Source of the DNA: Malus domestica
Taxonomy: Eukaryota > Streptophyta > Magnoliopsida > Rosales > Rosaceae
Assembly (NCBI RefSeq): GCF_042453785.1
Contig: NC_091668.1
Location: forward strand, 1,991,501-2,055,500
DNA length: 64,000 nucleotides
Direction of reading: 5' to 3'
Position numbers and translations under genes: made by a program. The notes under the pieces are model-generated. The model did not search any database and had not been told where the DNA came from. It worked only from the letters and a program-made list of their open reading frames with translations. The stretch's first letter is position 1. Every line of letters starts with the position of its first letter. Positions 28,803 to 59,757 of this stretch are shown one piece after another.

Positions 28803-30960
28803 TGTTTGTACCATACTTAGGGCCTCCGTATTTAGATCTCGTATAAATGCTCGGGGGACTCAAATGTAATTATGCAATAAATGAATGGGGCAAATATGTA
28901 AAAAGGGGATGAACCTTTATTCTATAAAAGGGCCTCCTCACCCTCACAAACCGGAAGCTCATCCTCACATACAGAAGCCTCACATCCCCAAAGAAAAGCT
29001 CTATCTCCCTCACATTCCTCTCACAAACAAAGAAATACAGTATCAGTGTGGACGTAGCCCAAACATTGGGGTGAACCACGATACATCTTGTGTTCTTTAC
29101 TTTATTGCAGATTCACGTTCGGATTTACGTTGTTCCAAGACCCCTCCGGTTTTGTGCATTAACATTTGGCACCGTTTGTAGGAAACGATACGAAAAGTTG
29201 TGTCAGTTCTCTTTCATTTTTTCACCTCCACCGTGAATCTCAGAACTCCAAGATTCCAGTTCCTATTGGCTCTACAGTCCCTCATGCTACCCCTCAACTA
29301 CCCTCGACAAGGTGGCGTCGGATAACAACAACCTAGTGGGAAAGAGGAAGAAGAAGATCTCTTTTCTTAGCTGCTATTCAGAATATAACAGCAACCTACG
29401 TGGCAACATACAACTGGCCTGCACAACCCTAACTTGCTCCCTCTCTCCCATCTAGTTTGCTTCTGCATACCAAACGACTAGAGACTCTGCAGATTTTAAC
29501 AGTTTTCTCCCATTTCCTCTTGGATCTCCATATCCGACAATTCCCTAGATTTCCATACTTCCCAATTAAAACCCAGAAAAGCAAACAGTCAGTTGTTACA
29601 GTTATTCACATAGCTCATCAATATTTGCTGCCATATATTCTCTCTCTAGAAAATGGCATCCCAACAGATTCTACCCATAACGTATCACCCTCCTCCACAG
29701 AAATCACTACTCAAAGAAACACAGGACGACCTGACAACCCAACTTCTGCTGTGCTTGAATTTCGAGGATGAAGAAAAGAACACACATGTGAAGCCTCTCC
29801 TCCTCAGGGTCTCTAGCTACACCACCACTTCCGCTGCTGCTCCCAACAATTACCAGCAGCGACGGCGTCAGACCGCCAGTGACATCTCTCTTTCTTCCCA
29901 CTCCCTCTCCGACGACACCCCCGTCCTCATCCTTATCACCAACCAGCTCCGCAAGGACCTCACCTCCACCAACGAGTTCAAGTGGTAAGGTTTTCATTCA
30001 AAAGAAAGCAATCGCCATGCTTTTGAGGTTGTTTGATAAATACCCAGATGCTGTGAGGGTGTGTTTTAAGCGTCTCACTTTCTTGCATTTTCTCGAAAAA
30101 CTTGATTGATGGCCGATGTTCAGATGCACGACGCTGAGACCTACGCCTTTTAGGCCGAGATCAACCAGCTTCTGAGGTCGAGGGCGAAGAGTCCGGCACA
30201 GAGCTTGCAAGCTCTTCCCTTGTTTGGATGGTGGTGGGGGCCTTTGTGCTCTCTGGAAAATCAACGAAGAAATGAAGGCTTTGCTTTTGAAGACCCCGAG
30301 AGTCACGAGGATGCTAAAGTTGTCGAATCCAATGCAACTTTAGAAAAAGAAGTCACGCACTCAGAATACAATAAGACGTGGCACCAGCTCACACCCATCA
30401 CTTTTCGGATGCTATACGACATAGCCCAGACACCTGGCGATTTAGAGGGATTATATGCGAAGCAATTAAGCATAAATTGATACCGACTCCTCAGAATTTG
30501 GTAACTTCAACTCCATATGTATTATTACGTAATGTATGGTCATGGTAATTCTAATTTTTGAATATTAGAATTTATATGATTAATACTACTTACCGACACC
30601 GAAAGTGAAGAAATTATTCAGATTCCTTCACATGGGTAGACTGTTCACTTTAGCTTTAATCATGTAAGCTAGAGTGAGCATATAACTAGGGTTAGGTTTG
30701 TAAACCTAAATGGTTAATCGTCTATATGCAAAAGCAAAGAATAAACACCCACATGCAAAAGCAAAGACTAAAGGGAGGATTTCCTCTGCGAGAGCACATG
30801 GGGGACACTACAAAAGCAAAAGAAGATAAAAAGAAGCAGACATAATTACGGTGGTGATGGCATGCAGAAAATGGAATTATGGGCATGACCCATTAAGCAG
30901 AGGGTGGGATTTATTTTTTAATAATGTAATTTATTCAGAAGATTCAGAAGTCAGCAGCAC
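28803..30960 (+). mobile_element. Gene-fragment-carrying LTR element (family P), 3' end lost, fossil
   Basis: The 5' LTR is 28803-29164 (TGTTTGTACC...TGCATTAACA, 362 bp), followed by a primer-binding-site-like TTTGGCACCGTTTGTAGG. No gag or pol is seen. Inside are host-like pieces. Around 29911-30109 are two blocks resembling adaptor AP-3 subunit delta (ITNQLRKDLTSTNEFK; AIAMLLRLFDKYPDAVRVCF). Around 30122-30176 is a block resembling the HSP90 N-terminus (DAETYAF, AEINQLL). A further frame at 30205-30480 is unidentified. No 3' LTR was found and the right limit is approximate. The element interrupts duplicated unit B. It is a non-autonomous, broken copy. Confidence 0.75.
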
Positions 30961-30964
30961 ACAC

Positions 30965-33900
30965 AACGCAACATCAACAAATTTTACTCCTCGGCCGACG
31001 AGTTGGCACGCCCACATACAACCGAAGGACGTAGTTAGCTTACTAATTACTCGGCCTGCGCGTCACGTAGGCTTGGTAGTTTTTAGGGTCAACATTTTGG
31101 CACGCCCAGTGGGACCCAGTGCTAAAACTACGAAGTTCACATGATAGATCAAGATTTCAATCAGGTTCCGTTGGAGACTTAGCGCCAAGTGAAACATTGC
31201 TACAAAAAGAAAGCAAAACTCCTTGACAAGTTGTCTAGAAGATGGGGGCAATTTTCCGCTCCAACAACAATCACACTTCAGCCTAGGAAAATTGTCAAGA
31301 CGGCCGAAGAAGAACCTAGGCCACTTGTTTGTTTGGTCGAGAATGAAAGCGTGGTAGGCCTAGAAGAAAAAGTTCAAGTTTTTGAGCCAAAAATTGACTC
31401 AGAAAATAATTCGTCAAATGAAGGTTCCAATGATGAACAAGGCCGATACACGACTTTAGACGAAAAAACCACATCAATTGATATGGTAATTGGAGACGTG
31501 ATCTTAGAAGCCGAAACCACGCCAATTGATATGATTATTGGTGATAAAGTCGATATAGAGAAATTCCATTCGGCTAAGCTGTTCGATTTAAGAGCCGAAA
31601 TTAACAAAATGATTATGCCTGGGGGGCATAATAATTGTTCAACATATTCGGCGGTCAAAAATGAAAAATATTTCGCCGAGTCAAAAATATTTGGAGAAAA
31701 TTCTTTATTTGGCCTAGAGCAAAATCAATTTGAAAATTTTGTTATTACAAGATCTCAACTTGGAATAAAGCATCGTTGGCCTCCTCCTTCTCATGGATCG
31801 GCCACTTTTATTCCTGTATTTTAGATTTCAGTTTTCTCTTTATATATTCTTATCCATCTGGCTGTTTGAGCTGATGATGCATAAGAAAATAGGGGGCAAC
31901 GGGGACCTCATACACCTGACCTAATACAAAAAAAAAAAAAAAAAAGGGAAAACAACTTTCGGTTGTCTAGGCCGAGGCCAAGAGATTCAGGAAGATGCTA
32001 TCATGGCCATAGCATTGGCCAAATAAGATACGAGTTGGCTGATTAAAAAAAAACAAAAAAAAGCTTTGAAGTCTGTGCCCCTGAATACTTGTTTGAAAGT
32101 GGAAGGGATATTAACAAAGCCATTCGGCCCTTTTCTTTAGGTTTTTTAGGTGAAGAGGTAAAATGAGGGCTCAGAAGTGCATGACAGCTGTATTACATTG
32201 GGAAATGAGTAGGGATGTATATCCTAAATGGTGGCTTGATGCCGTGTGCATAGATCCTAAATGGTAAGCCATGTTTTAGTGGTCATCCAGCGCCATGATT
32301 TCCACTGTTGCTGCATCATTTCTTGGGGTAGGTAAGTAGAGAGATTTGATGTGACTGAAATATGGTGATATTATCATAACCCATTTGGTGGAAAAATTCT
32401 TCTCGACCTCGGTGTAGTTTTTCTCGGCCTAAGCCCGCTTTATCCTCAACCCCAATTTTCTTGACCTTCTGGCAAAGTTGCCAAGCCTGGTATGAAGTTG
32501 CGGCAATCGAGGAAGGCTGCAGCGTTAGCAGAACATACATGTTATTGCTGAAGAACAAAGTTTCTTTTTCGGCGATTCGACGAGATTTTGTTGGTTACGA
32601 ACAATTAATTTCCTTAACCATTCGGCTTACGAGCTGAAATTTAAGGAAACTGGGGGGCAATGTTTGGACCAATTTTTACACTAGCGGTCCGAGTAATCGA
32701 GGTCGTTGAATGAGCAGGATTTTAAACCAACAAAGTGGTTGAAATGATTTTCAATTATTATTGAGAAATAATATTGTAATTTTAATTATGATATTATCTC
32801 TTAGTAATGTATTAAATTATTTAAACCTAATATTTGTCTAAATCCCAATTGATTTGAATGGTGATGGAATATAGGGATATGCATTAAGGCATGGCATCAG
32901 ATAACAACATGCAAAGATATGGAGATACGATTTGCATATGTGGTATTGCTTTAGCCACATGACACATGCATAATTAGAACTCCTGTGCAAAGTGTTATTT
33001 TGATGGAAGATGACATCTCAAGTGATTAGCTGATATTGCAATAAAATTGCATGCATGGTTGCACAGGTGTCGTGGGAAAGATAGGTTTATAGTTTGCATT
33101 GGGAGTCTTTGGCTATGAATGACAGCTTAATGGGATAAAGCAAGGCTACTGATGGAGTTTTGATGTGATGTGATAAGCCTATTTAGGTTTTTATTAGCTT
33201 TGAAAAGTCAACAATTTGAAGATAGGCTTTAAGCCTATGCAACAGACCAGTTAAGTTTTAGTCGGTTTTTGCTTATGATCCAGGCTGTACCAAACAGAAA
33301 ATATGTTCTTATAAATACAGAGGCAATGGAAATGCATGAAGAACCTCCAATTCAACACACAAATTGCCCTGCGCATTTTCTCGCTCTACGCGAAACTTCT
33401 CAACAACCTTGAGATTTTTGTTTTCCCCTTTTCGCCGACACACTTTCAGTTTTGATAAACAGCACTGTGGAGGTAACCGGCGAACATCTTCAATTTGGAT
33501 AAACAACACTGTTGCCGTAGAATCAGCCGACTGTAGAGCATCTTCAATTTGGATAAACAGCACTGCGATAAGGCTGACTGGTTACCTATCAAAGTCTCGG
33601 TCAAGAATGATTTTGAATCCTTATCAGCAGAGGTCATCTCGTTAGCCTTCTCGATGAAGCGAGGTGTTACAAGTTATTATACTTGGCACGTTGAACGTCG
33701 AGTCGTTTATGATTGGTTACTCGCAAGTAGGTTTTAGAATTCGACATTATGATGGCCGAACCACTTTCACAATCAAGACGTATATTCGTTTTGAATACTT
33801 ATGTCCTTATACTCTGGTGTCGATTCGGCGTGTTTATACTCTTACGAATATAATCACAGTGATCGAATCTGGCGCCGACGATTTATGAACTTCGCAAAAC

Positions 33901-34124
33901 TCGTAGCTTTGTCTTTAAGCTCTAGAACCTGAAGGCCGAGGCGTGTTCCTTTCTCGGCCGCAGTCACACGATCGAAAAGTTAGCCGCGCACCCAACCCAA
34001 CATCAACAAATTTTACTCCTCGGCCAACGAGTTGGCATGCCCCGCATACAACCGAAGGACGTAGTTAGCTTACTAATTACTCGGCCTGCGCGCCATGTAG
34101 GCTTGGTAGTTTTTAGGGTCAACA
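30965..34124 (+). mobile_element. Non-autonomous LTR element (family S), 5' LTR mostly lost, fossil
   Basis: The 3' LTR is 32661-34124 (TGTTTGGACC...GGGTCAACA, 1464 bp), preceded by a polypurine tract (GGAAACTGGGGGGCAA). Only the last ~130 bp of the 5' LTR remain (30965-31094), followed by TTTTGGCACGCCCAGTGGGA as primer-binding region. The internal part (31095-32660) has one open frame, 31189-31824 (211 codons), acidic, containing a duplicated motif (TTSIDMVIGDV / TTPIDMIIGDK) and no gag/pol similarity. Same family as the solo LTR at 2285-3571. Broken copy of moderate age. Confidence 0.85.
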
Positions 34125-34515
34125 GATATGTAGGGTTTAACGGATATTATTATTTGTAAATAATCCTATTGGACAAATTATGAGAAATGTTTTCTATCGA
34201 ATTACTGTGATGGGTGGTAATTGATTATGGGCTTTAACTGGAAGCGAGTCCTCTCTCTGCCTCACTTATATATATTGCATATATCCATCTAATATGCACT
34301 TGATAGAAAAAACACGATTAGGGTTTTCACGTGCAAATAGAGGCAAGAGAGAGAACACCTATTTCCTCCGCCGCTGATAGAATCCGTTTAGGATTTGATA
34401 GCGTTCGTTGTCATGGATCAAGGTACGCTTGGTTGTTTAATGTATTTCTACATTTTATTTGTATGTGAAAATCATGAAGTTCGATGATCTTGGCTTAATT
34501 GATTTATAATTTACA
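34125..34515. other. Spacer before duplicated unit C
   Basis: Promoter- and leader-like sequence: TATATATATTGCATATA near 34270, then an ATGGATCAAG followed by GTACGC near 34423 and a TTACAG acceptor-like site at the exact start of unit C homology. It may be the first exon of a lost gene or of a retroelement. Not recognised. Confidence 0.35.
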
Positions 34516-38578: not shown

Positions 38579-39154
38579 TATTGTCTTTTAAAAATTTTAA
38601 AGCAAAAGAGAAAAAGAAAAAAGAAATAGGCTTGTGATCTAGTTTCATTTGAGGAGAAATATTTTAATCTTCGAAGATAGTAAGTTATGGAATAAATAAA
38701 TCATACAAATTTAGAAAATGCATAAGAGAAACATTAAGAAGACTCTCAAAAGCATGGCTCTTTATAAACTTTTTACGGCATCATATTTGACACAAAATTT
38801 TATAACATTAACACATAATAGAATTTAACGTTAAATTGTAAATTGAAAGTCCCCTTCAACCTTCTCAAGACACAATGATCTTAGGGTGAAGGCTAAGAAA
38901 GTGTGATCAAGCCATGTTTGTCTGTATTCAACCACTTACGAAGGAATCATTTCATGTAAAAAAGACAAACTATCCCAACCCGTCCTCAAGTTCCACGAGT
39001 CATCTAAAATATAAAAATAATGTGTTCAATTCTCTTTCTTTTTGTTGTGTGAATAATATGTGGATGACCCTGGAAATTTTGTAAAGTAAATAATGTTCTA
39101 TTTGCTTATAAAATGAATGAGATGTTGTGAATAATATGTAGATGGCCCATATGA
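38579..39154. other. AT-rich spacer, no gene seen
   Basis: Low-complexity AT-rich sequence with no feature that I can support. Confidence 0.4.
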
Positions 39155-40140
39155 ATACTTTGTTACTATTTATACACAGTATTTTTACTATTCATTTGTG
39201 GAAAATTTGTAAAGTGAATAGTGTTCTCTTTTGTTTATAAAATGAATGAAAGATGAATAAGGTTGAGAGACATACGGGAGAGATAGGAAGGAAAAAAGGA
39301 TGAGAGAAAGAGAGGACGAGAGAAAAGAGAGGAAGAGGAGAGGAGATAATAGAAAAAGTTATCTTTGTACTCCTATTATTCCAAATTATAATGAAAGCAC
39401 CACTGCTACCCCGAGGAAGTACTCCAGTCACACTGACTGTAGAGGAACCTCGTAAATTTTGTGTCTTATTTCATTTATTCCACTGCACCCACCGTCAATT
39501 TTACAACATAAGAGACGAATAAGGAGAGAAGCAAAATGGAAGAGGATGTGAGAAAAGAGAAGAAGAGGAGAATATGAATAATTTGTTACTATTTATACAC
39601 AGTATTTTCACTATTCATTTGTGGAAAATTTGTAAAGTGAATAGTGTTCTCTTTTGTTTATAAAATGAATGAAAGATGAATAAGGTTGAGAGACATACGG
39701 GAGAGATAGGAAGGAAAAAAGGATGAGAGAAAGAGAGGACGAGAGAAAAGAGAGGAAGAGGAGAGGAGATAATAGAAAAAGTTATCTTTGTACTCCTATT
39801 ATTCCAAATTATAATGAAAGCACCACTGCTACCCCGAGGAAGTACTCCAGTCACACTGACTGTAGAGGAACCTCGTAAATTTTGTGTCTTATTTCATTTA
39901 TTCCACTGCACCCACCGTCAATTTTACAACATAAGAGACGAATAAGGAGAGAAGCAAAATGGAAGAGGATGTGAGAAAAGAGAAGAAGAGGAGATGAGAT
40001 AATAAAGAGAGTTATTTTTGTACTCCTATTATTCTAAATTATAATGAAAGCACCATTGATGTCCCGAGGACGTACTCCAGTCATACTGATTGTAGAGGAA
40101 CCTCGTAAATTTTGTATCTTGTTTCTTTTATTCTACTGCA
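39155..40140. repeat. 423-bp tandem duplication plus a third partial unit
   Basis: 39155-39577 and 39578-40000 are almost identical direct repeats (TTTGTTACTATTTATACACA ... AAGAGAAGAAGAGGAG). A diverged third copy of the inner part (TACTCCTATTATTCTAAATT, TGTAGAGGAACCTCGTAAAT) runs to about 40140. Identical 79-codon minus frames in both units are products of the purine-rich tract and not genes. Confidence 0.9.
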
Positions 40141-44231: not shown

Positions 44232-46040
44232 TCAATTCTTGGTGGAAAATGCCTTCTTCTTGAAACTCTTAGGCATTGCCCTAATCCAAGCTTTGGCATC
44301 AATGGAGTCCTTTGTTATGAAAGGTGCAGCTTCTTCACTCGTTAGGACTCGTGCCCAGTCAGCTCTTTTTGATGTCACAGCTCCAGGTCCAGAACATTCG
44401 TATTGTCCATAGTAAACAGAACTGCATATGTATCAATCATTGGAACCAAATTAGCCAACGTAAATAAACCAAAAAAAAATTGAGTAAGAAATTTGGAACG
44501 AAAATAAGAAAGTTGTTATTAGCAATCCAAAATAGTCTTCATATAAAGAAACTGAGGAGCAGACGATAATTATTTTGAAATACTAATAACAATTTAGTAA
44601 AAGTACCTTAATTGGTCAGCTGAGTGTCCCCAGTTGTCCCAACCCTGAGGGAGTATGGCATTAGGCATGTAAGTGAAGGCAAAAACGACTCTGGAGTAGA
44701 CACCCCATGGCCTTCCTAACACTGCCGTTTTGACGCCAGTGATCTTGCACCCAAAGAAAATGAACCCAGTGTCCTCTGAAGGTGACATCCTCCGTTGGGC
44801 TGTTATGGCACCCCCTCCGTCCGAAATCGAATGCAAATGGCACTTCTGTAAAAGTAACTGATTTATTCAGCAATTGAACCCCAAACATATGATTTATCAC
44901 CATACTTAATTCTTGAGAAATTTTTGAACTACTACCAAGTCGCATGATGTTATTAATCCGCATATTATAATATGACTATAAAATACATCATGAGCGAAAT
45001 GATAACAAGAAGTGAACGGTTTTAGCCCGAATCAATATAACTTTAAACAAATAATCAAAAACCAAAACTCTGTAAAAATATTGTATTATTCTTATATGAG
45101 TTACCTCAAAAAAGGAAGCAGCATTCCCACATATAAAATCAGTGGCTCCTTCAATATAACAGTTGTTGTAGTAATGCCTGCCGGTATCGTCAAGTAGGGT
45201 ATCTTGGTAAGACAAAATTCTGCACACATAAAACGCTGCTCTATCTCCTGAGACCCTTACTGCCACTGCTTTATCACCCCTTCCATAAGTGTTCTGCAAT
45301 GAATTTCAACAATTAAAATTATTAGATTCAAGCGTATATATGCATTATCATAGGGAATCGAAGTAAGAACGGAATGTCAGCTGTCGACTACCTAACGTAC
45401 TCCCACTCCTCTTTTATCCGGCCTTGAGATAGCCTAGTTAGGAAGATTTGGAAAGATACTCTAAAAAAAAAGACATGGAATAATTGGAGCTAGCAGAAGA
45501 CTTGACACAAAACCGAGCGCAGTCGAGCTAGTATTCATACAGCTGACCCGACTTAGTGGGATAAGATTTTGTTGTTGTTATTATATATTGTCGTCGTAAG
45601 TGTATATATGCATGTGAAAATTTTACGTATAATTGTGTGTGTACCTGAATTGTGAGGTAGCGCCCTATAAAATCCGAAGCCAACACAGAGAAAGTTGCAG
45701 ATTCAAATATATTTCCACTGTCGTTCCACGTAATAACAGTGCCACCTGCCGTTGTGCCACTGATTGTAATAAAGGGTTTGTCTGCGGGGACAGTAATTTT
45801 TTCTTTGTAGACTCCAGGGTTAACCTTAACGAACACAAGATCGACGTTATTCGACGGCACGGCGTCGATGGCATCTTGTATTTTCTCGTAATCGCCTTTC
45901 CCAGTCTGATCCACGGTTATTAGTATTGCCGTGGACCCCTGAGTTGTGTCTGCTTCTGCTTGAGAAATCGCTAGAAGAACATACAATGAAGCCATGACAC
46001 AGAAGCACTTGGTCATAGAAGTGCCACAAACAGCCACCAT
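44232..46040 (-). CDS. Pectinesterase (PME11-like), complete
   Basis: Carbohydrate esterase family 8 enzyme that removes methyl esters from cell-wall pectin; secreted. Exons on the minus strand are 46040-45645, 45293-45105, 44845-44607 and 44421-44232, 337 residues. A hydrophobic signal peptide spans about residues 12-30 and no PMEI pro-domain is present (type II/group without inhibitor domain). Signature blocks are [16 protein letters not shown] (Asp163), TDFICGNAA (Asp184) and LGRPW (Arg240), so the catalytic Asp pair and Arg are kept. FICG for the common FIFG is seen in the PME11 subgroup as I recall it. In GDKAVAVRV, Lys replaces the usual Gln. An ATG nine codons upstream (46067) is possible. 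I prefer [12 protein letters not shown] because a degenerate paralog upstream starts alike. Intron 1 holds a LINE tail. Confidence 0.93.
45415..45586 (+). mobile_element. RTE LINE 3' tail in pectinesterase intron 1
   Basis: In plus orientation: a degenerate end of the LINE ORF followed by GCTGACCCGACTTAGTGGGA and TTTTGTTGTTGTT, matching the 3' end (GCCGACCCCACTTAGTGGGA) of the LINE pieces at 13-19 kb. Dead fragment. Confidence 0.75.
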
Positions 46041-47030
46041 GGTCGCAGTGGGAAGATTTAGGATCAAACACCTCTTAAAAAAATTAATTAATTAAAGATG
46101 AATGTGTTGAAGTAAATATTGAAGAATGTGGATTGAATGTTGAAGAAGATGGATCTTAATTGTTATATAGTAGTCTCAGGTGAATGACAGAGGGAGGTGC
46201 GGCCGTTTTCTTGGCAATGAAGTTTAAAGATAATTAGAATTAATCACTTTTTACGTAAACGTGTGGAGGATAATTGTAAGGAAATTCCAGAGTAGCCGGC
46301 GGCAGGAGATTTGTACATTGAGACTGAAGAAACAAATGTCTGAAAAATGCGTGAATCTGAGGTGGTTAATCAGGTTAATTAGATATGAAAATGTTGTAAT
46401 GGCGGCCTAATTAAATTATTGATGTTACACAAGTCTTGAGGTAGCTTAAGAAGTAGAATAAGTATGTCGTCATTTGAGTGATATTAGGGTTTATGACCCA
46501 TTACGTTATTTGAGCAGGCAGCTCAGTTGCTTGTATTTGGAGCTTTGACCATGGCTGCCACCATTGTAAACTAGGGCTGAAGCCCGAACAGGTCCAATTC
46601 ATAATTCTGAAAATGAATCACAAGGCGAATATGCACATCGAAGAAAAACTGACAATAATCACTAACATTAATTGCATATAAAATAAAGTGATGTCGGATT
46701 GTATGACTATGAGAGTGGGAACGTACATGAAAGGCTCGGTAACTAATGAAATTATTAGCTACTGAGAGGGCTTTTACACACATAGCTAACCCAGCACCGA
46801 TTCTTCGATATATTTCTTGTTTGAAGTATTCTTGATTCCTATTATAACGAGTGATACCAAATAATTCAATCGGGATAGTTGTTGAACCACACCACAAGTT
46901 CCAACAACTACGAAAGCAGCAAAAATGACAGCAGCAATATTACTGGAAAGACGGTTTCAATATTTCCATATGTAATTCCTTTGTATAGGCGTTGCGGTGA
47001 CGCGGACACCAGAGTTATGCATACTTGAAC
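46041..47030. other. Pectinesterase upstream region
   Basis: Promoter side of the pectinesterase gene, about 1 kb to the relic at 47031. A 108-codon minus frame at 46571-46897 has no recognised product. Confidence 0.4.
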
Positions 47031-47120: not shown

Positions 47121-48043
47121 GTTCGTAGAGAATCACAGAGATATTTGTAAGATGTTATGTAGGCGCGCGTTGCATGCATGCGGGTGGTGAATATATAGGG
47201 CTTCCCATATACAAGTATAGTAGGAAGATAAATGTTAAGGGAAATCTTTTAAAAGTGAAACTTTTTATGGATTCTCATTAATCTTATAGTTTAACGTCAA
47301 TTCTTGTATCAATATTATAAAATTTTATGATAAAAACATGAGATAACAGAAAATTCATGCAAAGTATCACTTTCGTGAGAGTCCCCTTAAAATTTCTCAT
47401 AGTAGGAATACTAGGTTGGTAATATTTCTATGTATAGAAGGGCAATTAAGTTACCCGCTTCATATCAGTTCTTGATTTTGAACGAGTTTGAACTTATAAA
47501 TGTTTTCCCGATTTAGTTAGGATTCTGCCTTTGCCTTTGGACGACTCCTTTCTCTTTTGGGAGAGATTTCTGATAAGCTCATATTTATATATATTTTACA
47601 TCAAATTCACTTGTCTTTTCTTAGTTAGTTCCTTATATTTTTTAGCTATTTACTTTGTTTTTGTGTGTTTGTGGGATTTGTCAAGCAAAGAAAAGAAAAA
47701 TAGCACAAGTGGGATTTTAAGTAACAAATTCGTCAAAACTGCATGTGTAGATCAGTTGACTTTGGAAGCAAGTTGGGAACATCTCAAAATGAATTAGAGA
47801 ACGAGCCTTATATACTTGGAAAGCTACGGATGTCTATTTTCTAGACCATTTTGCAGATTGCTAATATCATTTTTCTACAAGAAATTATGGCCGTTTTAAC
47901 ACCGAAAGGTTCCCAAGAGGCTAAGCAGTTTGTAACTGAAAGTAATAAATCCAATAAATCTAGCAACCAAAACTGATGCAGCCAAGAACAAGTCAGCTGA
48001 CACCTATTCAAATATCAGAGGAAATGAAATTAAAGATGAGGAT
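47121..48043. other. AT-rich intergenic, no gene seen
   Basis: An 88-codon plus frame at 47531-47797 is hydrophobic and AT-driven with no resemblance to a known family. Confidence 0.4.
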
Positions 48044-48410
48044 TGTTGATGCACAAAACCGGAGGTCTTGGAACAATGTAAATCCGACCGTGAATCTGCA
48101 AGAAAGTAAATAACACAAGATGTATCGTGGTTCACCCCAAGGTTTGGGCTATGTCCACACTGATTATTGTATTTCTCTGAGACGTGAGGGGAGTGAGGGA
48201 GAGAGATTCAAAGCCTTTGAGGGAGAGAGTGAGGCCTCTGATGACCTAGGAATTGGCCTCCCCTAATTGTGAGGGTGAGGAGTCCTTTTATAGAATAAGG
48301 GCTCCTCACTTATTACATATTTGCCTCTTCCTTTATTACATAATTACATTTAAATCCCCCGAGTATTTATACGAGATCTAAATACGGAGGCCCTAAGTAT
48401 GGTACAAACA
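48044..48410 (-). mobile_element. Solo LTR of family P (367 bp)
   Basis: Minus-strand TGTTTGTACC ... TTGTGCATCAACA, same LTR as 28803-29164 and 50583-50940. Perfect 5-bp TSD AGGAT (48039-48043 and 48411-48415). No internal sequence, so a solo LTR. Confidence 0.92.
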
Positions 48411-48884
48411 AGGATTAAGTGGGAGTAATGGGCATAAAGGCTACCTAAAGAGTTATAATTGTTTTACCATTTTCTCTAACTTATTGTCATCACTAAATAA
48501 ACGTTAGTGGGGTGAGTTATGGAGAAAAAATTGGGGTATCAAGCAGAACAAAAAGGTGCAGGTTGCAGCAGCAAAAGGGAAGAAAAAAGATAGAAAAAAG
48601 AAAAAAAAATGGAAAGGTGTAACTGACGAAAATGGGAGGGAAGAAAGCAAGGCAGCAAGAAGTTAGACGAGGAAGAAGGCAGTAGCATTGAGGAAGGAGA
48701 GAAGAGGAGACTCGATTCTTTCGGTTTTATCTTCTCAAACCCATGTCTTTCTTTTGGTTTAATTTAAAAATTATGTGTAACTAATTTTTAGTAGTTAGGG
48801 GTTGTTTTGAAGCCCCGAATATGATTGCAAGTTTGTTATGACATTTTGTTTCAATTATTTTTATGAATGGATGAAAATTAGTTC
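48411..48884. other. Spacer between two family P insertions
   Basis: Purine-rich then AT-rich; GAGTTATGGAGAAAAAATTG-type low complexity. Its right end joins naturally to the sequence at 50946 across the element inserted at 48885-50940, and may be part of an older retroelement. Confidence 0.4.
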
Positions 48885-50940
48885 TGTTGATGCACAAAAC
48901 CGGAGGTCTTGGAACAACGTAAATCCGACCGTGAATCTGCTGGGGTTTATACAGATATCTCCGAAAGATACGAAAAATAAATTACATCATTGAAAAAATA
49001 GGGAAAGTAAACCACATCATTCTGGTGGGGTGTTTATTCCTTGCTTTTGCAGTGTGGGTGTTTATTCCTTGCTTTTGCTTGTGTTTTTCTGCTACACTCT
49101 CTCTTCATCTAGCAGACAGAAGGAATCATAATAATAGGAAGATCTTTTGCTTTTCTTCTTTTCTCTCCACTGCGTCTCTGTCTTTTGCTTTTGTGTCGTA
49201 GCTCACTTGATTGTTTTCCTTTCTGCTTTCTTTTTTTTCTTACTTTTGCATGTGGGTGGTCGACAGCGCGCCCTCATCCTCATCAGTACCTCCAACACCA
49301 ACTTAGCATATTATATACTTTGGAGAACCATCAGAGTATTCAGTGGTGGTGGTGGGGTTGTTCTGTGTTTATGTGCCCCAAATCCTCTTTAACGACAGAA
49401 TATGGGTGCTCAAACCCGAAGATTTTTGTCTGCTGTAATTGTTTTTGGGTGAATCGAAACAGATACTACTAGGCACCTCATCCACGAGAACAGATACCCC
49501 CACCACCTCCGTGAATGGCTTCCTCCCACATTCCTCCAGCGATAAACTCGTCGATGACGCGCATCTTGAAAAAGTGATAGAGTTGCCATGGTAGAGCACA
49601 CTGGTGGGGAATTGCTGCCTAGCCCAACCTGGCGGAGCACACTGGTCATCCCAGTCAATTCTAATTCTTGGTATCCTGGCAGTTGGGGAGCTAAATGGAA
49701 GGGTAACAGGGGCACTGATAGAGCCGCCATGGATGTAGAGGTTCGGTAGTTTGGAAGAGGAGGCCGAAAATGATGCATATGAGAGATTTTTTAGCCATGG
49801 GATAAGGGATCTGCCATCAGCATTCAGGAGATCCATAGGAAGATGATGTTGGGCTGGGGAAGGAGTGGATTGTAGGAAGCATAATTACTTGGGAGGAAAG
49901 ACGAGCTTGGGCTAGCTAATGTGGATCCACCCATCACGTCCATGTGTTCAACCGGCTTGCATCCCTCGCGGTAAGTGGTGCCGTTGATATGAGAGGCCAT
50001 GACTTTGTCCATTGCGCCAGCGAGCTTGCCATCGATGAAGACGACGGGGACGGCGAATGAGGTCCCCATCAACCTCGTCAACGCCTGAGTCTTTACCGCC
50101 ATCGTTGTTGGTCTCCTCCTTCACCACAACCACTGGCTCATTTGAGTTCAAAGCCCAAGAAATCTTTCTCCATCTCAGCCTACCACAATCACTCAAAAAA
50201 AAATAGCATACAAAAATGTCGATCTGAAAAAAAATCTGACACAATAAATCCTTCAACCAAAATCCCGAGCTAGCTGGAGTTATAAGGAAAAAGCTTCCGC
50301 CTTCAGCAAACAAAATATGAAGAAATTACAGGGTCCCTAGTCCAAAGAGAGAGTTTGTGGTGTTTTGTTTGGAGAGGTGAAAAAGATCATAAGCAAGAGA
50401 GAGGAAGGCCAGGCACGTGGTCTGTGCAGTTGCAGAGAGAGATTGAGTCAGAGAGGAGGTGCTCCGTGGCTTTTCTGGGAAATTTTTAGGTTCTTGGGTT
50501 TTTGCAGATTCAAGGTGGAAATGAAAAAAATTAAAGATAACTGACATAACTTTTCATGTCGATTCCCACAGACGGCGCCAAATGTTGATGCACAAAACCG
50601 GAGGTCTTGGAACAACGTAAATCCGACCGTAAATATGCATGAAATGTAAATAACACAAGATGTATCGTGGTTCACCCCAAGGTTTGTGCTATGTCCACAC
50701 TGATTATGTATTTATTTGAGAAGTGAGGGAGAGAGATTCAGAGCCTCTAAGGGAGAAAGTGAGGTCTCTAATGGCCTAGGAAATGGTCTCCCCTAATTGT
50801 GAGGGTGAGGGGTCCTATTATAGAATAAGGGCTCCTCCCATTTTTACATATTTGCCCCTCCATTTATTACATAATTACATTTAAGTCCCCAAGTATTTAT
50901 ATGAGGTCTAAATACGGAGGCTCTAAGTATGGTATAAACA
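48885..50940 (-). mobile_element. Gene-fragment-carrying LTR element (family P) with TSD, fossil
   Basis: Bounded by a perfect 5-bp TSD AGTTC (48880-48884 and 50941-50945). The 5' LTR is 50583-50940; next to it is TTTGGCGCCGTCTGTGG, a primer-binding region. The 3' LTR is represented by about 55 bp (48885-48940). No gag or pol. The interior carries a block like a CC-type glutaredoxin ([25 protein letters not shown], about 49978-50102) running directly into blocks like a BES1/BZR1 homolog of the BEH4 type ([48 protein letters not shown]; about 49600-49977). 2056 bp, non-autonomous and broken. Confidence 0.88.
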
Positions 50941-52039
50941 AGTTCACTACTTGTCTCAATGATGAATTCTTTATGTGTTTTCTACGGATGCATACTTAGT
51001 AAGCATCTCTAGGATTTAAATGCTATGAATATGTGTGTGTCTGCCCTTGTCGAATGAGGACCTATATATGTTCTAGAGTAGTAACATGTGAATCAATTTA
51101 TAGGATAAGTAAGATAGTGTCAGTACTTACGATGCCTTATAATGACTCAAACTCTTTTCGTTCTTAATGATTTCTACTTGTTAAATCTATGAACACGCCA
51201 TTCTAGATTGCATGCTAGGGACTAAGTTAAGTTGAAAGCGTCATTCTCTTAACATACTACATAAGAAAGAGTAATAGGTTGAGTTCTAACATTGAGCCAA
51301 CTTGAGCATCTTCATCCCGAAATAAAAGGAATTTGAATGAAACATAGCATGTTTGCATGATTATTTGGTGGTGGATAGCAATTCCCCTAACTCGTTTTTC
51401 TTAATTTGTGAACTACTTAAAATATGTTTCTGTCCCGTTTTTATTCGATTTAATTTAAATAGCAAATCAACTCCAAAAATTCCAAAATTTTGTGTGAGTG
51501 TAGCTCTTTGTGTCTAGTGTCTTCATATAAAATTTCGTAGACTTTAGATAAGTGTAAGTTGGTCTAATAATTATTTCCGATGGCTGGTCAGTAGGGACAG
51601 CAACCCAGTTTTTGTGACATTTTAAGTAGTTAGATAAATCAATCTTCTGCGGGAAAGACCTTTATTTTTATATGCTACAATTGACAAATCTTAATGTTAA
51701 TAAGGAAAATCAATAGGACATTTGTGTGCTTCTTTGTGATGTGCCTTTAATCCTATCAATTTATGAGTGGGGTAGTTACATGCCATGCAACGTTATTGAT
51801 CTTTATTATGAAATAAAAGATTAATGACAAGGTTGATAGGTCACAAACATTTGATATATAGTTAATAATAGATAATAATATTAAATTTTAAGTGAATTCA
51901 TAACTTTACTCAGTGGTGTAATCCGTTGTCACATGTTATTTTCATGAGTACCATTATATATTTAGACACACGAATTTGACATTTGTTGACCAGTCTCTAA
52001 CACAAATAAATTTCAATACACTACTAATTTAGTAGATCA
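50941..52039. other. Possible older LTR-retroelement remnant; no gene
   Basis: Stretches such as AAATCAACTCCAAAAATTCC, GTGTCTAGTGTCTTCATA and TCTGCGGGAAAGACCTTTAT resemble LTR-adjacent DNA of plant Tat-type gypsy elements as I remember it. No coding domain is visible. Boundaries unknown. Confidence 0.3.
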
Positions 52040-52433
52040 AAATAGTTTTAGAAATAAAATGTATAATGAAAAACCACAAGTACAACCAAGTCCAGTATAA
52101 TAAAAAAGGAATGCATCCCAAGCCGTCGTTGACAAATAATGATCCCAAATATAACAATTCTGAATAAAATGACCAAAACTAGTAACAACGTTAGTTAGAG
52201 AATTATTTCTCTGCAGATGAAAAACTCCGCCAGGTAAGAGATATCCTCCACAATTGTTTTGAGCCTCCACGAACGTGACACTTTCTTTGAACAACATCAA
52301 TGACCAATTTCAAATCTCCTTCCACACAAATTTTTTCAAGCCTTTTAATCTTAACAAATTTGAAGGCATCTCGTAATGAAATCGCCTCAGCAACTGAAAT
52401 TGTGTTGTGATAAAAAAAGCATGCGAAAATCAC
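52040..52433 (-). mobile_element. LINE/RNase H-like domain fragment
   Basis: AEAISLRDAFKFVKIKRLEK ... VEGDLKLVIDVVQ on the minus strand is the RNase H-like (RVT_3) domain common at the end of plant L1 elements. The following part continues in another frame (NNSLTNVVTSFGHFIQNC). Degenerate relic. Confidence 0.6.
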
Positions 52434-53372
52434 TTCTATTTTAGGGTTTTTATATTAACATCAAATTAAAATTTAATATTAAATTACTTATTTACTCCAC
52501 TATGTAATGACAATTTTGACCTTATTAGGTTTTAAAAAAAATAAAGATTTATAAATACACCCCAAATCACTTTTAGCATATTATTTATCTTCTCAACTAT
52601 CAAACATGTTGATTAAGAAAAATATGTTTCAGGAGCTTCACATGAGGTAAGACTTTATAGTTTTCATTGTTTTAGTGATTTCGATGACATCGATAATTAT
52701 TTAATCTTGCGTTTGCTGCATTATTTAAACTTCTATATTCATATTCATCTTTTAGTGTTCATATGGTTAGATTCAATCCCTGAAAATTAAAAATGAGCGT
52801 TATAAGATTTGAGAAATGTGGGGTGTAAAGAAAATGTGGGGTGCATGTACCAAATATAAGATGTATATTGAGAATGTGGGGTGTATTAAGATAGTTTTTA
52901 AGTGAAAAAGCAAATGTGAAGTGTATTAAGTTTGTGGAATTTATTCAACAATTTGTATGGTATTAATATAATTAGCCCTATTTTATATGGCAAAAATTTA
53001 TTGTAGTCGTGTAGGCTCTAATTCTATCTTCTGGCCCATATTGTTGTGTATTCCTCCAGTCAGTCCACATGTCATGCACAAAAATAAGCATGCATGTCAA
53101 TAAGAGACCCAAAAAGAAGAGACAACTCCTTTGAAAAACGACCCTAGTCCATAAAACGACCCTAGTCCATAAAATACCATGTTTGCTAGCTAATAGGAAA
53201 TAAATTTAAAAAAAAAGAAAAGAAAAAGAGGAACAGTTAGCAGAAAATCTTGCATAGAAGTAGCTGGCATTGCTCCCGATATTTCAAATGTGACCGTGGA
53301 TTTTATGGAAACACCGAGGAGGGGGCATGACAGCCCAAACTTTATCCATGTTCAATAATGCTGAGTTCATTT
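52434..53372. other. AT-rich intergenic, no gene seen
   Basis: A GTGGGGTGTATTAAG-like motif recurs several times at 52815-52930. Nothing else supported. Confidence 0.35.
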
Positions 53373-57179: not shown

Positions 57180-58162
57180 CAAAAAATAGAAGTTGGTTAC
57201 GAAAAAGGGTGCAGAGGCGTTTTATAGAGCAGGATTCCAACCTCCTCTTCCGAAAGAGAACGGCTTTTCGGCTGAGAGAGAGAGAGACGGTCAGGTGTTG
57301 GTGGCGGCGCACGGTGGTTGAGGTGGTGGTTGTAGTGGCACGACTCGTCGCCTGCTGCTGCAACCAACTGTAAACAACCGCAATCTCCACGGCATTTCAA
57401 ATTAAATTAAATTTCAATTTTCATTTGGATAATTTTATGTTTATAAAATTCAGAAATTGAAAATATCAGCTTCTTTGGCGTTGTTCGTTTTGGCCTCGCC
57501 GATATGGTCAATAGTATATGCGTATATACCCTCTCTCTCTCCTCTCTCACTTTCTCTCTCTAAAGCTTTTGTATTTGTGCGCGACATTGGTGATTTCCTA
57601 GAAGCCTCCAGAAATCCCCACGCGCATTTGCCTCCTCCCCTACTGGTACATTCTCTCTCTCTCTCTCTCTAAACTGAATCTTTGAGCTTCTTCAAGCGAT
57701 CCGGATTTTAAGTGTTTTAGTTGGATCTCGATTTTTTGCAATTTTTTCATGCGATTTCAGGTTCGGAATGTTAAGAAATTCGATTTTTAGTGTAAATTTC
57801 GAGTATTTAATTTGATTTTTTCTGTTTTATGATGCACATTGTTCTTAATTCTTAGCATTTTCGTCGATCAAATTTCAATACTTTCATGTTAAATTAGTGA
57901 TTGTTGTGATGCAACTAGAAAATAATTCAAATTTTGCAGGAATTTTTTTGAAGAAAACGTTCCACTGACAAAAAATTAAAAATAAAAAACCGATCTTCCG
58001 GGTAAAAATTTATTTTTTATGATTGTGATGTTCTTAGAATTTGATTTTATAGATTCTTATGGAAGCTTTTCGTATAATTAGATCTGCGAAATTACGAAAA
58101 ATATCAGCTACAACATTTGAATTGTGATCATAGTTGTTGTGGAAATACTATTAGAGTGAGTG
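57180..58162 (+). promoter_or_regulatory. Promoter and leader of the Tubby-like gene
   Basis: CT-rich tracts at 57529-57570 and 57650-57672 are typical of a plant 5' leader. A leader intron is plausible between a donor near 57644 (CTACTG|GTACAT) and an acceptor near 57939 (TTTTGCAG|GAATT); this is inference from consensus. Minus frames at 57172-57400 are shadows of the repeats. Confidence 0.5.
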
Positions 58163-59757
58163 ATGCAGTTCAAAAACGTGTTTCACGAGCTACTGGAAAT
58201 GAGAGATGACAAGGGAAAGAAATCAAGAAGAGGAGGGGACGAGAGGAAGCACACGCGCCGCCGAGCTAAATCTCACATTGCCCCAGAGCATACGTTGTCA
58301 TCACCTGCACCAGTTGAGCAAAGCAAGTGGGCAAACTTGCCCCCAGAGTTGCTTCTTGACATAATCCAACGCGTCGAAGCGAGTGAGACTTCCTGGCCTG
58401 CTCGGAGAGATGTGATTGCTTGTGCTTCGGTTTGCAAGTCATGGAGGGAGATTACGAAAGAGATAGTCAAGACTCCTGAGCAATGTGGCTGGCTTACCTT
58501 CCCTGTCTCACTCAAGCAGGTATTTTTCGATAAACAACATTCTTTAGGTTATTCTTATTGAATGTGACTTTCACTTACCTACTAAAGATTTTCACTTTCC
58601 TCATTACTTGCATATATTTACTAGCCGGGACCAAGAGATCATCCGATCCAATGCTTTATTAAGAGGGAAAGAGAAACTTCAACGTATCTACTGTACCTTG
58701 GTCTTAGCCCCGGTAAATGTTTGGATGCTTCTCCCCTTCTTATTCACGAATCATGACTTGGGTGTGTTAGAAATCGGTGTTCAAATTCTTTCGCAATGGA
58801 TTTGTAAACGCGTGACTAACTCTTTCTTATAAATCTGCAGCTCTGTGTGGGGATGTGAGTAAGTTATTGCTGGCAGCAAGAAAGGTCAGAAGGGCAGCAA
58901 GTACACATTTTGTGGTGTCCTTGGCTGCAGATGAATTCTCTCGAGCAAGCAATTCTTACGTTGGAAAACTAAGGCAAGCTTAAATAAAATGTATCCTTAT
59001 CATTGACACGGTCATTCATTTTTCATTTTGTGCTGTTACACCTACGACTCATTCTTCTTTTCGTGCAATTTATTGGAAAATGCTGTGCAGGTCTAATTTT
59101 CTGGGTTCCAAGTTTACCGTTTATGACAGTCAGCCTCCACAAGGCTCAGCAATCCAAACAAATTATTGGTCACACCGAAAGATGAATTCAAAGACGGTAT
59201 CTCCAAGGATACCTGCTGGTAGCTATAGTGTTGCTACCGTATGTTATGAGCTCAATATCCTCCGAACAAGGGGACCAAGGAGAATGCAGTGCATCATGCA
59301 ATCAATCCCCGTGTCAGCAGTTCAAGAAGGGGGCGTTGCTCCTACTCCAACAGAGTTAGCAACCTGCCTTCCTCCAAAATGCTGTCCAATGCATGTTTCA
59401 AAGGGATCGAAGCAGCTTGCCAACTTGTGCTCTAGTGTCCCTACAACGGATTTGGAACAAGGCACAAAAGATCCACTCATTTTGAAAAATAAAGCTCCTA
59501 GATGGCATGAGCAGCTGCAGTGTTGGTGTCTGAATTTTAAAGGACGCGTTACCGTGGCCTCCGTGAAGAATTTCCAGCTGGTGGCCGGTGTAGAGCCATG
59601 CCATAATGTTCCTTTGGCTGAACAAGAGAGAGTAATACTGCAATTTGGGAAGATCGGTAAAGACATTTTCACAATGGATTATCGCTACCCTCTCTCTGCT
59701 TTCCAAGCCTTTGCAGTTTGCTTGAGCAGCTTTGACACAAAACCAGCATGCGAATGA
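58163..59757 (+). CDS. Tubby-like F-box protein, complete
   Basis: Plant TUBBY-like protein (TLP): an F-box that recruits SKP1 of an SCF ubiquitin ligase, joined to a phosphoinositide-binding tubby barrel. Exons 58163-58519, 58625-58712, 58841-58973 and 59091-59757 give 414 residues. The F-box is at about 56-102 ([20 protein letters not shown]...[13 protein letters not shown]). The tubby domain is at about 118-414 with [74 protein letters not shown] and the invariant end [20 protein letters not shown]. The N-terminus [20 protein letters not shown] departs from the usual MSFKSIVRELREMRD. The intron after exon 3 uses a GC donor (AAG|GCAAGC). The paralog number cannot be assigned. Confidence 0.95.
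58974..59090 (+). other. GC-AG intron in the Tubby-like gene
   Basis: The exon ends CTAAG at 58973 and the intron begins GCAAGC; the acceptor is TGCTGTGCAG at 59081-59090. Only this boundary keeps the frame and the conserved VGKLR|SNFLG sequence. GC donors make up about 1% of plant introns. Confidence 0.85.

Follow-up and report, generated by a model that had tools for sequence, protein, structure and literature searches.

Within the 64-kb window, i.e. the whole stretch of DNA that was analysed, positions 48885-50940 are occupied by an LTR element of 2056 bp whose sense strand is the minus strand. On the plus strand its termini read TGTTGATGCA and GGTATAAACA, and both ends are flanked by AGTTC, the 5-bp TSD expected of an LTR retrotransposon. 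Thus, the TSD-bounded element proposed in the first-pass annotation was recovered with the same ends. The direct repeats consist of a 358-bp 5′ LTR and, at the correct end, a 56-bp remnant of the 3′ LTR; a complete LTR of this family stands alone nearby. Immediately inside the 5′ LTR lies TTTGGCGCCGTCTGTGGGAATCGA, which is PBS-like in appearance and position, and a similar stretch is present in a second member of the family at 28803 to about 30935, in the following called the sister element. The site of the polypurine tract is missing from both copies, through a deletion in the element and through truncation in the sister element. The coordinates of all features are collected in Table 1.

Table 1. 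Features of the LTR element, of the neighbouring solo LTR and of the sister element. Scores against AtBEH4 and ROXY1/GRXC7 refer to provisional comparison sequences.
Feature	Position	Strand	Remarks
TSD AGTTC, left copy	48880-48884		
3′ LTR remnant, final 56 bp of the LTR	48885-48940	-	54 of 56 sites equal to 5′ LTR
3′ tail common with sister element	48976-49078	-	46-nt match, 91%, at 49033-49078
Stretch beyond the BEH piece	49372-49608	-	open in the frame of the BEH second part; 79 residues, about 240 bases
BEH4-like, second part (SLIPWLKNLS..GGSISAPVT..GWARQQF)	49609-49839	-	provisional AtBEH4, score 199
BEH4-like, first part	49848-49982	-	BES1_N E=1e-4; provisional AtBEH4, score 131, 0/500 shuffles
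CC-type glutaredoxin fragment	49977-50087	-	TIGR02189 E=2e-8; provisional ROXY1/GRXC7, score 116, 0/500 shuffles
JAZ3/TIFY6B-like N-terminal fragment	50083-50173	-	with start codon; two frames
Presumed JAZ 5′ untranslated region	50174-50491	-	position only
5′ leader common with sister element	50492-50558	-	81% over 91 nt, including PBS-like stretch
PBS-like stretch adjoining 5′ LTR	50559-50582	-	position and appearance
5′ LTR	50583-50940	-	358 bp, complete
TSD AGTTC, right copy	50941-50945		
Solo LTR, same family	48044-48410	-	own TSD AGGAT; 474 bp left of the element
Sister 5′ LTR	28803-29163	+	81% identity to 5′ LTR 50583-50940 over 352 sites
Sister PBS-like stretch and leader	29164-29253	+	
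Sister cargo, start of a gene without confident match (MASQQILPITYHPPPQ..)	29653-29901	+	
Sister cargo, AP-3 delta-adaptin, first piece	29902-29979	+	weak alone
Sister cargo, AP-3 delta-adaptin, second piece	29987-30076	+	other frame
Sister cargo, probable HSP90 N-terminus	30109-30177	+	with start codon; in-frame stop
Sister 3′ tail	30728-30935	+	ends at about 30935, cut by another repeat

No match to gag or pol at E≤1 was obtained among the 7 + 10 frames scanned in the element, in agreement with its earlier description as non-autonomous. The same annotation had regarded it as a fossil, and this view holds up: the cargo frames are shifted and the 3′ LTR is cut to 56 bp. Altogether, the reading as a non-autonomous, fossil LTR element with captured glutaredoxin (GRX) and BEH fragments is supported. 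Most of the 3′ LTR would have been lost by a later deletion. Premature strand transfer is not accepted as the source of this short repeat, because it should in principle shorten both LTRs, and an age estimate from LTR divergence was dropped, because just 56 sites, with 2 differences, can be compared.

Between the LTRs, at least three host gene fragments are joined on one strand: a JAZ3/TIFY6B-like, a CC-type glutaredoxin and a BEH4-like fragment. Several host gene pieces enclosed by LTRs, as in Bs1-type elements, are thus present here, GRX and BEH being recognised by profile and JAZ by a provisional comparison sequence together with a printed motif. The central piece of evidence is a fusion frame of 98 amino acids at 49824-50120 on the minus strand, which runs from stop to stop and stays open through the GRX-BEH junction. 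Residues 12-48 of this frame match the NCBIfam model TIGR02189 (plant GRX-like, E=2e-8) and residues 46-79 match BES1_N of Pfam (E=1e-4), so that a lack of GRX or BEH similarity, named beforehand as an outcome that would speak against the capture, was not observed. Neither score reaches its curated cut-off (34.1 bits against 93.8 for TIGR02189, 23.1 against 25 for BES1_N), as expected of fragments, because these cut-offs suit whole proteins. The BES1_N match covers the end of the profile only, from position 64 onward, and the GRX fragment presumably starts beyond the region containing the active site. A PDB search returned one glutaredoxin (E=0.92).

The first-pass annotation had let GRX run straight into BEH on one strand. 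This is correct as far as the two profile matches in one frame are concerned; the BEH part then shifts frame between 49848 and 49839. The second BEH part, already considered BEH-like because of its SLIPWLKNLS and GGSISAPVT motifs, keeps this assignment: the highest score among 500 shuffles against the provisional AtBEH4 sequence was 51, far under that of the real piece, and Pfam gave no match at E≤10. The pairing of GRX with BEH was likewise confirmed for both partners, and no description of this pair was found in the accessible portions of the open-licence PMC literature. The count of donors had been set too low, the JAZ/TIFY fragment and the sister element having been overlooked.

In the JAZ fragment, MEKDFLG comes first and the remainder follows in another frame; joined by X, the pieces score 68 against a provisional AtJAZ3 sequence, compared with at most 34 in 500 shuffles. 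JAZ3/TIFY6B is the presumed parent. A paper on walnut lists the N-terminal motif of the fragment, MERDFLGLSKKTDS, among the motifs of the TIFY family (PMC8903722). The region between the leader and the JAZ start codon is presumably the 5′ untranslated part of JAZ. It is important to add that the comparison sequences AtBEH4, ROXY1/GRXC7 and AtJAZ3 are provisional and that the assignments of JAZ and of the second BEH part rest on them. As cross-controls, the fragments were paired with the wrong proteins: 12 of 500 shuffles scored as high as BEH_a did against JAZ3, 30 of 500 as high as BEH_b against GRXC7, and at least 74 of 500 as high as each of the remaining 9 wrong pairings.

At the junctions, the fragments overlap by a few bases. 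Six bases, GGCACC, are attributable to either parent at the GRX-BEH junction, and two to five bases within CAGGC at the JAZ-GRX junction, both judged at the protein level. A switch where both parents encode Gly-Thr had been suggested before; the shared codons are indeed there, and the overlap of the two profile matches at residues 46-48 is Asn-Gly-Thr rather than Gly-Thr alone. A microhomology-guided switch is a possible reading that fits these codons.

The 79 residues that follow the BEH similarity resembled none of the three comparison proteins and had no NCBIfam match at E≤10. Class I and valyl tRNA synthetase matches for the region after BEH (E=0.04 and 0.16) were not accepted, because the 79-residue stretch alone had no NCBIfam match at E≤10. 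At the end of the BEH similarity, at 49589-49646, a 17-nt near-repeat is found (TGGTAGAGCACACTGGT and TGGCGGAGCACACTGGT, starts 41 bp apart), which may show where the reverse transcriptase slipped or jumped. Further matches were taken as chance: BIV_Env (0.17), zf-LITAF-like (0.52), MMS19_N (0.05), PRK10710 (0.044), GREB1_2nd (0.077), DUF7237 (0.22) and the Pin1 WW domain (0.57).

The sister element lies on the plus strand, from 28803 to about 30935. LTR, PBS-like stretch, leader and tail recur in it and the middle differs. Its cargo includes, ahead of the other pieces, the start of a gene for which Pfam, NCBIfam and PDB-chain searches gave no confident match (29653-29901). Then follow two pieces of AP-3 delta-adaptin. 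Within a longer query, the first piece gave AP-3 delta in three of four matches (E=0.74 to 1.1, among them 9c5c_D with E=0.74), behind an unrelated MAC/Perforin protein (0.47) that was taken as chance; it aligns to positions 98-126 of chain 9c58_D (E=0.8). In the case of the second piece, all five matches were AP-3 delta, the best with E=0.011 at positions 159-188 of 9c58_D, and Adaptin_N of Pfam reached E=0.27 only. The two pieces are thus in order, with about 32 residues skipped and a change of frame between them. At 30109-30177, all three matches were heat shock proteins, two of them named HSP90, at a weak E=0.70 to 0.74, and neither Pfam nor NCBIfam gave a match. Plant HSP90 is presumably a closer match. 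Going by these similarities, this piece is probably the start of an HSP90.

In 30935-34125, a different LTR element apparently starts with a cut LTR at about 30935 (TTTTGGCACGCCCAGTGGGACC beyond this point) and interrupts the sister element; blastn places further copies of this repeat at 33964-34124 and, in inverted orientation, at 2281-2451.

The family is represented in the window by four LTR copies detected by blastn: the 5′ LTR and the 56-bp remnant of the element, the solo LTR, and the LTR at 28803-29163. To describe what the two elements share, leaders, tails and middles were compared separately. The leaders score 53, the top of 200 shuffles being 15 (0/200), and the tails 36 against a top of 18 (0/200); a second, weaker tail match of 25 nt (92%, E=0.007, blastn) lies beside the LTR remnant. 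The middles score 15, which was reached by 18 of 200 shuffles, and therefore they are not common to the two elements. The tail at 49028-49078 holds a 23-nt exact direct duplication with starts 28 bp apart, and the sister tail matches it once in full and once over a shorter length. No autonomous partner of the family was found. A pattern of the LTR ends matched nothing in either viral_contigs or genome_contigs, which says little for collections without plants; the fusion frame gave 6 pattern stretches in viral_contigs, likewise free of plants, of which 0 passed tblastn.

In both elements, the recognised pieces run along the element's own sense strand. The sense frames were examined first, an order that favours this outcome, and frames of at least 40 amino acids on the other strand were scanned afterwards. 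Compared with Pfam, ten of the eleven interior frames of that strand in the element and eight of nine in the sister element gave nothing better than E=0.077. This silence is weak evidence, because Pfam misses most of the sense-strand cargo too.

Elsewhere in the window, two adjacent direct copies of 423 bp with 99.5% identity (39149-39994, blastn) represent a recent tandem duplication. A 450-amino-acid open frame on the minus strand at 17661-19010 matches the reverse transcriptase domain model RVT_1 (E=2.8e-34) and looks LINE-like by eye. Additionally, there is a piece of a pectinesterase gene at 45531-46091 on the minus strand (E=5.7e-15) and a tubby-like gene with F-box and Tub domains at 58160-59754 on the plus strand (Tub E=3.9e-72).

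Taken together, the features at the locus are most probably those of a fossil member of a plant LTR family, itself non-autonomous, which acquired pieces of host mRNAs, repeatedly, by template switching. Element RNA would be packed with cellular mRNAs in particles that an autonomous partner supplies. While making the minus strand, the reverse transcriptase would leave the tail and jump at short matches to a BEH mRNA, from there to a GRX mRNA and then to a JAZ mRNA, would reach the 5′ end of the latter or a position near it and would return to the leader of the element. The chimeric cDNA would then integrate, and later frameshifts would damage the captured fragments. Among the assigned genes, JAZ and HSP90 are those captured with their start codon. 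We infer that on reaching the 5′ end of a donor the enzyme is forced to switch, which would account for the presence of a start codon next to the leader. The overlaps of a few bases and the start codons thus fit serial template switching inside a particle. Published models assume a particle with element RNA and host mRNAs in which switching is serial, and allow several template switches at microsimilarities (PMC5408686); abnormal template switching is also treated in a review (PMC13317346).

Several other origins were weighed. One is capture at the DNA level: double-strand-break repair, nested insertion or a DNA transposon (Helitron or Pack-type) would have brought genomic pieces into the LTR element, which carried them from then on. 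In favour of this explanation, genes for CC-type GRX frequently lack introns. The recognised pieces being all on the sense strand in both elements, the start codon in the JAZ piece and the BEH piece running gap-free from GTTYR into the next region all speak against it, and we consider it unlikely. Regarding the termini of Helitrons or Pack-MULEs, 6 inverted-repeat pairs were detected in 47500-52500 and none of them encloses just the cargo.

The open frame over the GRX-BEH junction could also indicate that the 98-codon fusion is a maintained new gene or a decoy peptide. This is highly improbable: the GRX part presumably begins past the active-site region, the BEH part has only the end of BES1_N, frame changes occur in BEH as well as in JAZ, and little of the 3′ LTR is left. 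An ordinary cluster of host pseudogenes, flanked by LTR remnants by chance, would agree with a 3′ LTR that is merely a remnant. The first-pass annotation had named such an adjacency in a host gene as a result that would undo its reading; however, a single perfect 5-bp TSD, the PBS-like stretch adjoining the LTR, and the same leader and tail around an unrelated middle in the sister element make it very unlikely, and we give it next to no credence.

One could go further and see in the family a standing gene-capture machine, in which a fixed leader of about 90 nt and a fixed tail serve as landing places for the reverse transcriptase, the string of mRNA pieces differs in almost all copies and in many cases includes mRNA 5′ ends, and new chimeric transcripts are seeded genome-wide. 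This extension is speculative and we would rather doubt it at present. Both copies in the window are broken, with shifted cargo frames, no intact 3′ LTR and no complete element, and therefore no gene product is expected. Accordingly, we expect no present function of the element at 48885-50940, and its effect on the host is probably inert; small RNAs against the parental genes are a speculative possibility.

Capture of several genes by plant LTR elements is already known, Bs1 and GmaRetroS15 being the nearest cases. Bs1 of maize carries segments of an H+-ATPase, a xylan endohydrolase and a beta-1,3-glucanase and is reportedly transcribed and translated, according to the review (PMC13317346). 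Like Bs1, with its three donors, the element described here unites segments of several host genes, at least three, between LTRs; in contrast to Bs1, the genes are others and the frames are broken. TRIMs are defined by a very short internal part and very short LTRs, a definition that an LTR of 358 bp and an element of 2056 bp exceed. In PMC4717578, gene-carrying TRIMs are small non-autonomous elements of 1,172 to 1,449 bp with exon pieces without introns; GmaRetroS15 unites pieces of three genes, and almost every one of the 30 elements with such cargo was present in at least two copies. Our element is likewise small and non-autonomous and carries pieces of several genes; it differs from these TRIMs in the lengths given above and in that two family members, within 64 kb, bear different cargo.

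In hot pepper, about 72% of the retroduplicated NLR genes lie in non-autonomous LTR elements without gag/pol coding potential, and therefore the machinery would be supplied in trans, as stated in PMC5664825. There, one gene class was captured, mainly one NLR subgroup, whereas here a mixture of short pieces is observed. In rice and sorghum, 672 and 1,343 LTR-captured genes were described; these LTR elements likewise carry host genes, some examples being 9.9 to 15.8 kb long with one annotated gene each (PMC3726574). The present locus adds a case in which the strings of host fragments differ between two members of a single family in the same window. Two siblings in a 64-kb window that share their ends and whose strings are unrelated suggest repeated capture and not one capture that was copied many times. 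If this is true, template switches, in the form of junction overlaps, mRNA 5′ ends and skips, could be counted and mapped across many copies of such a family in a sequenced plant genome.
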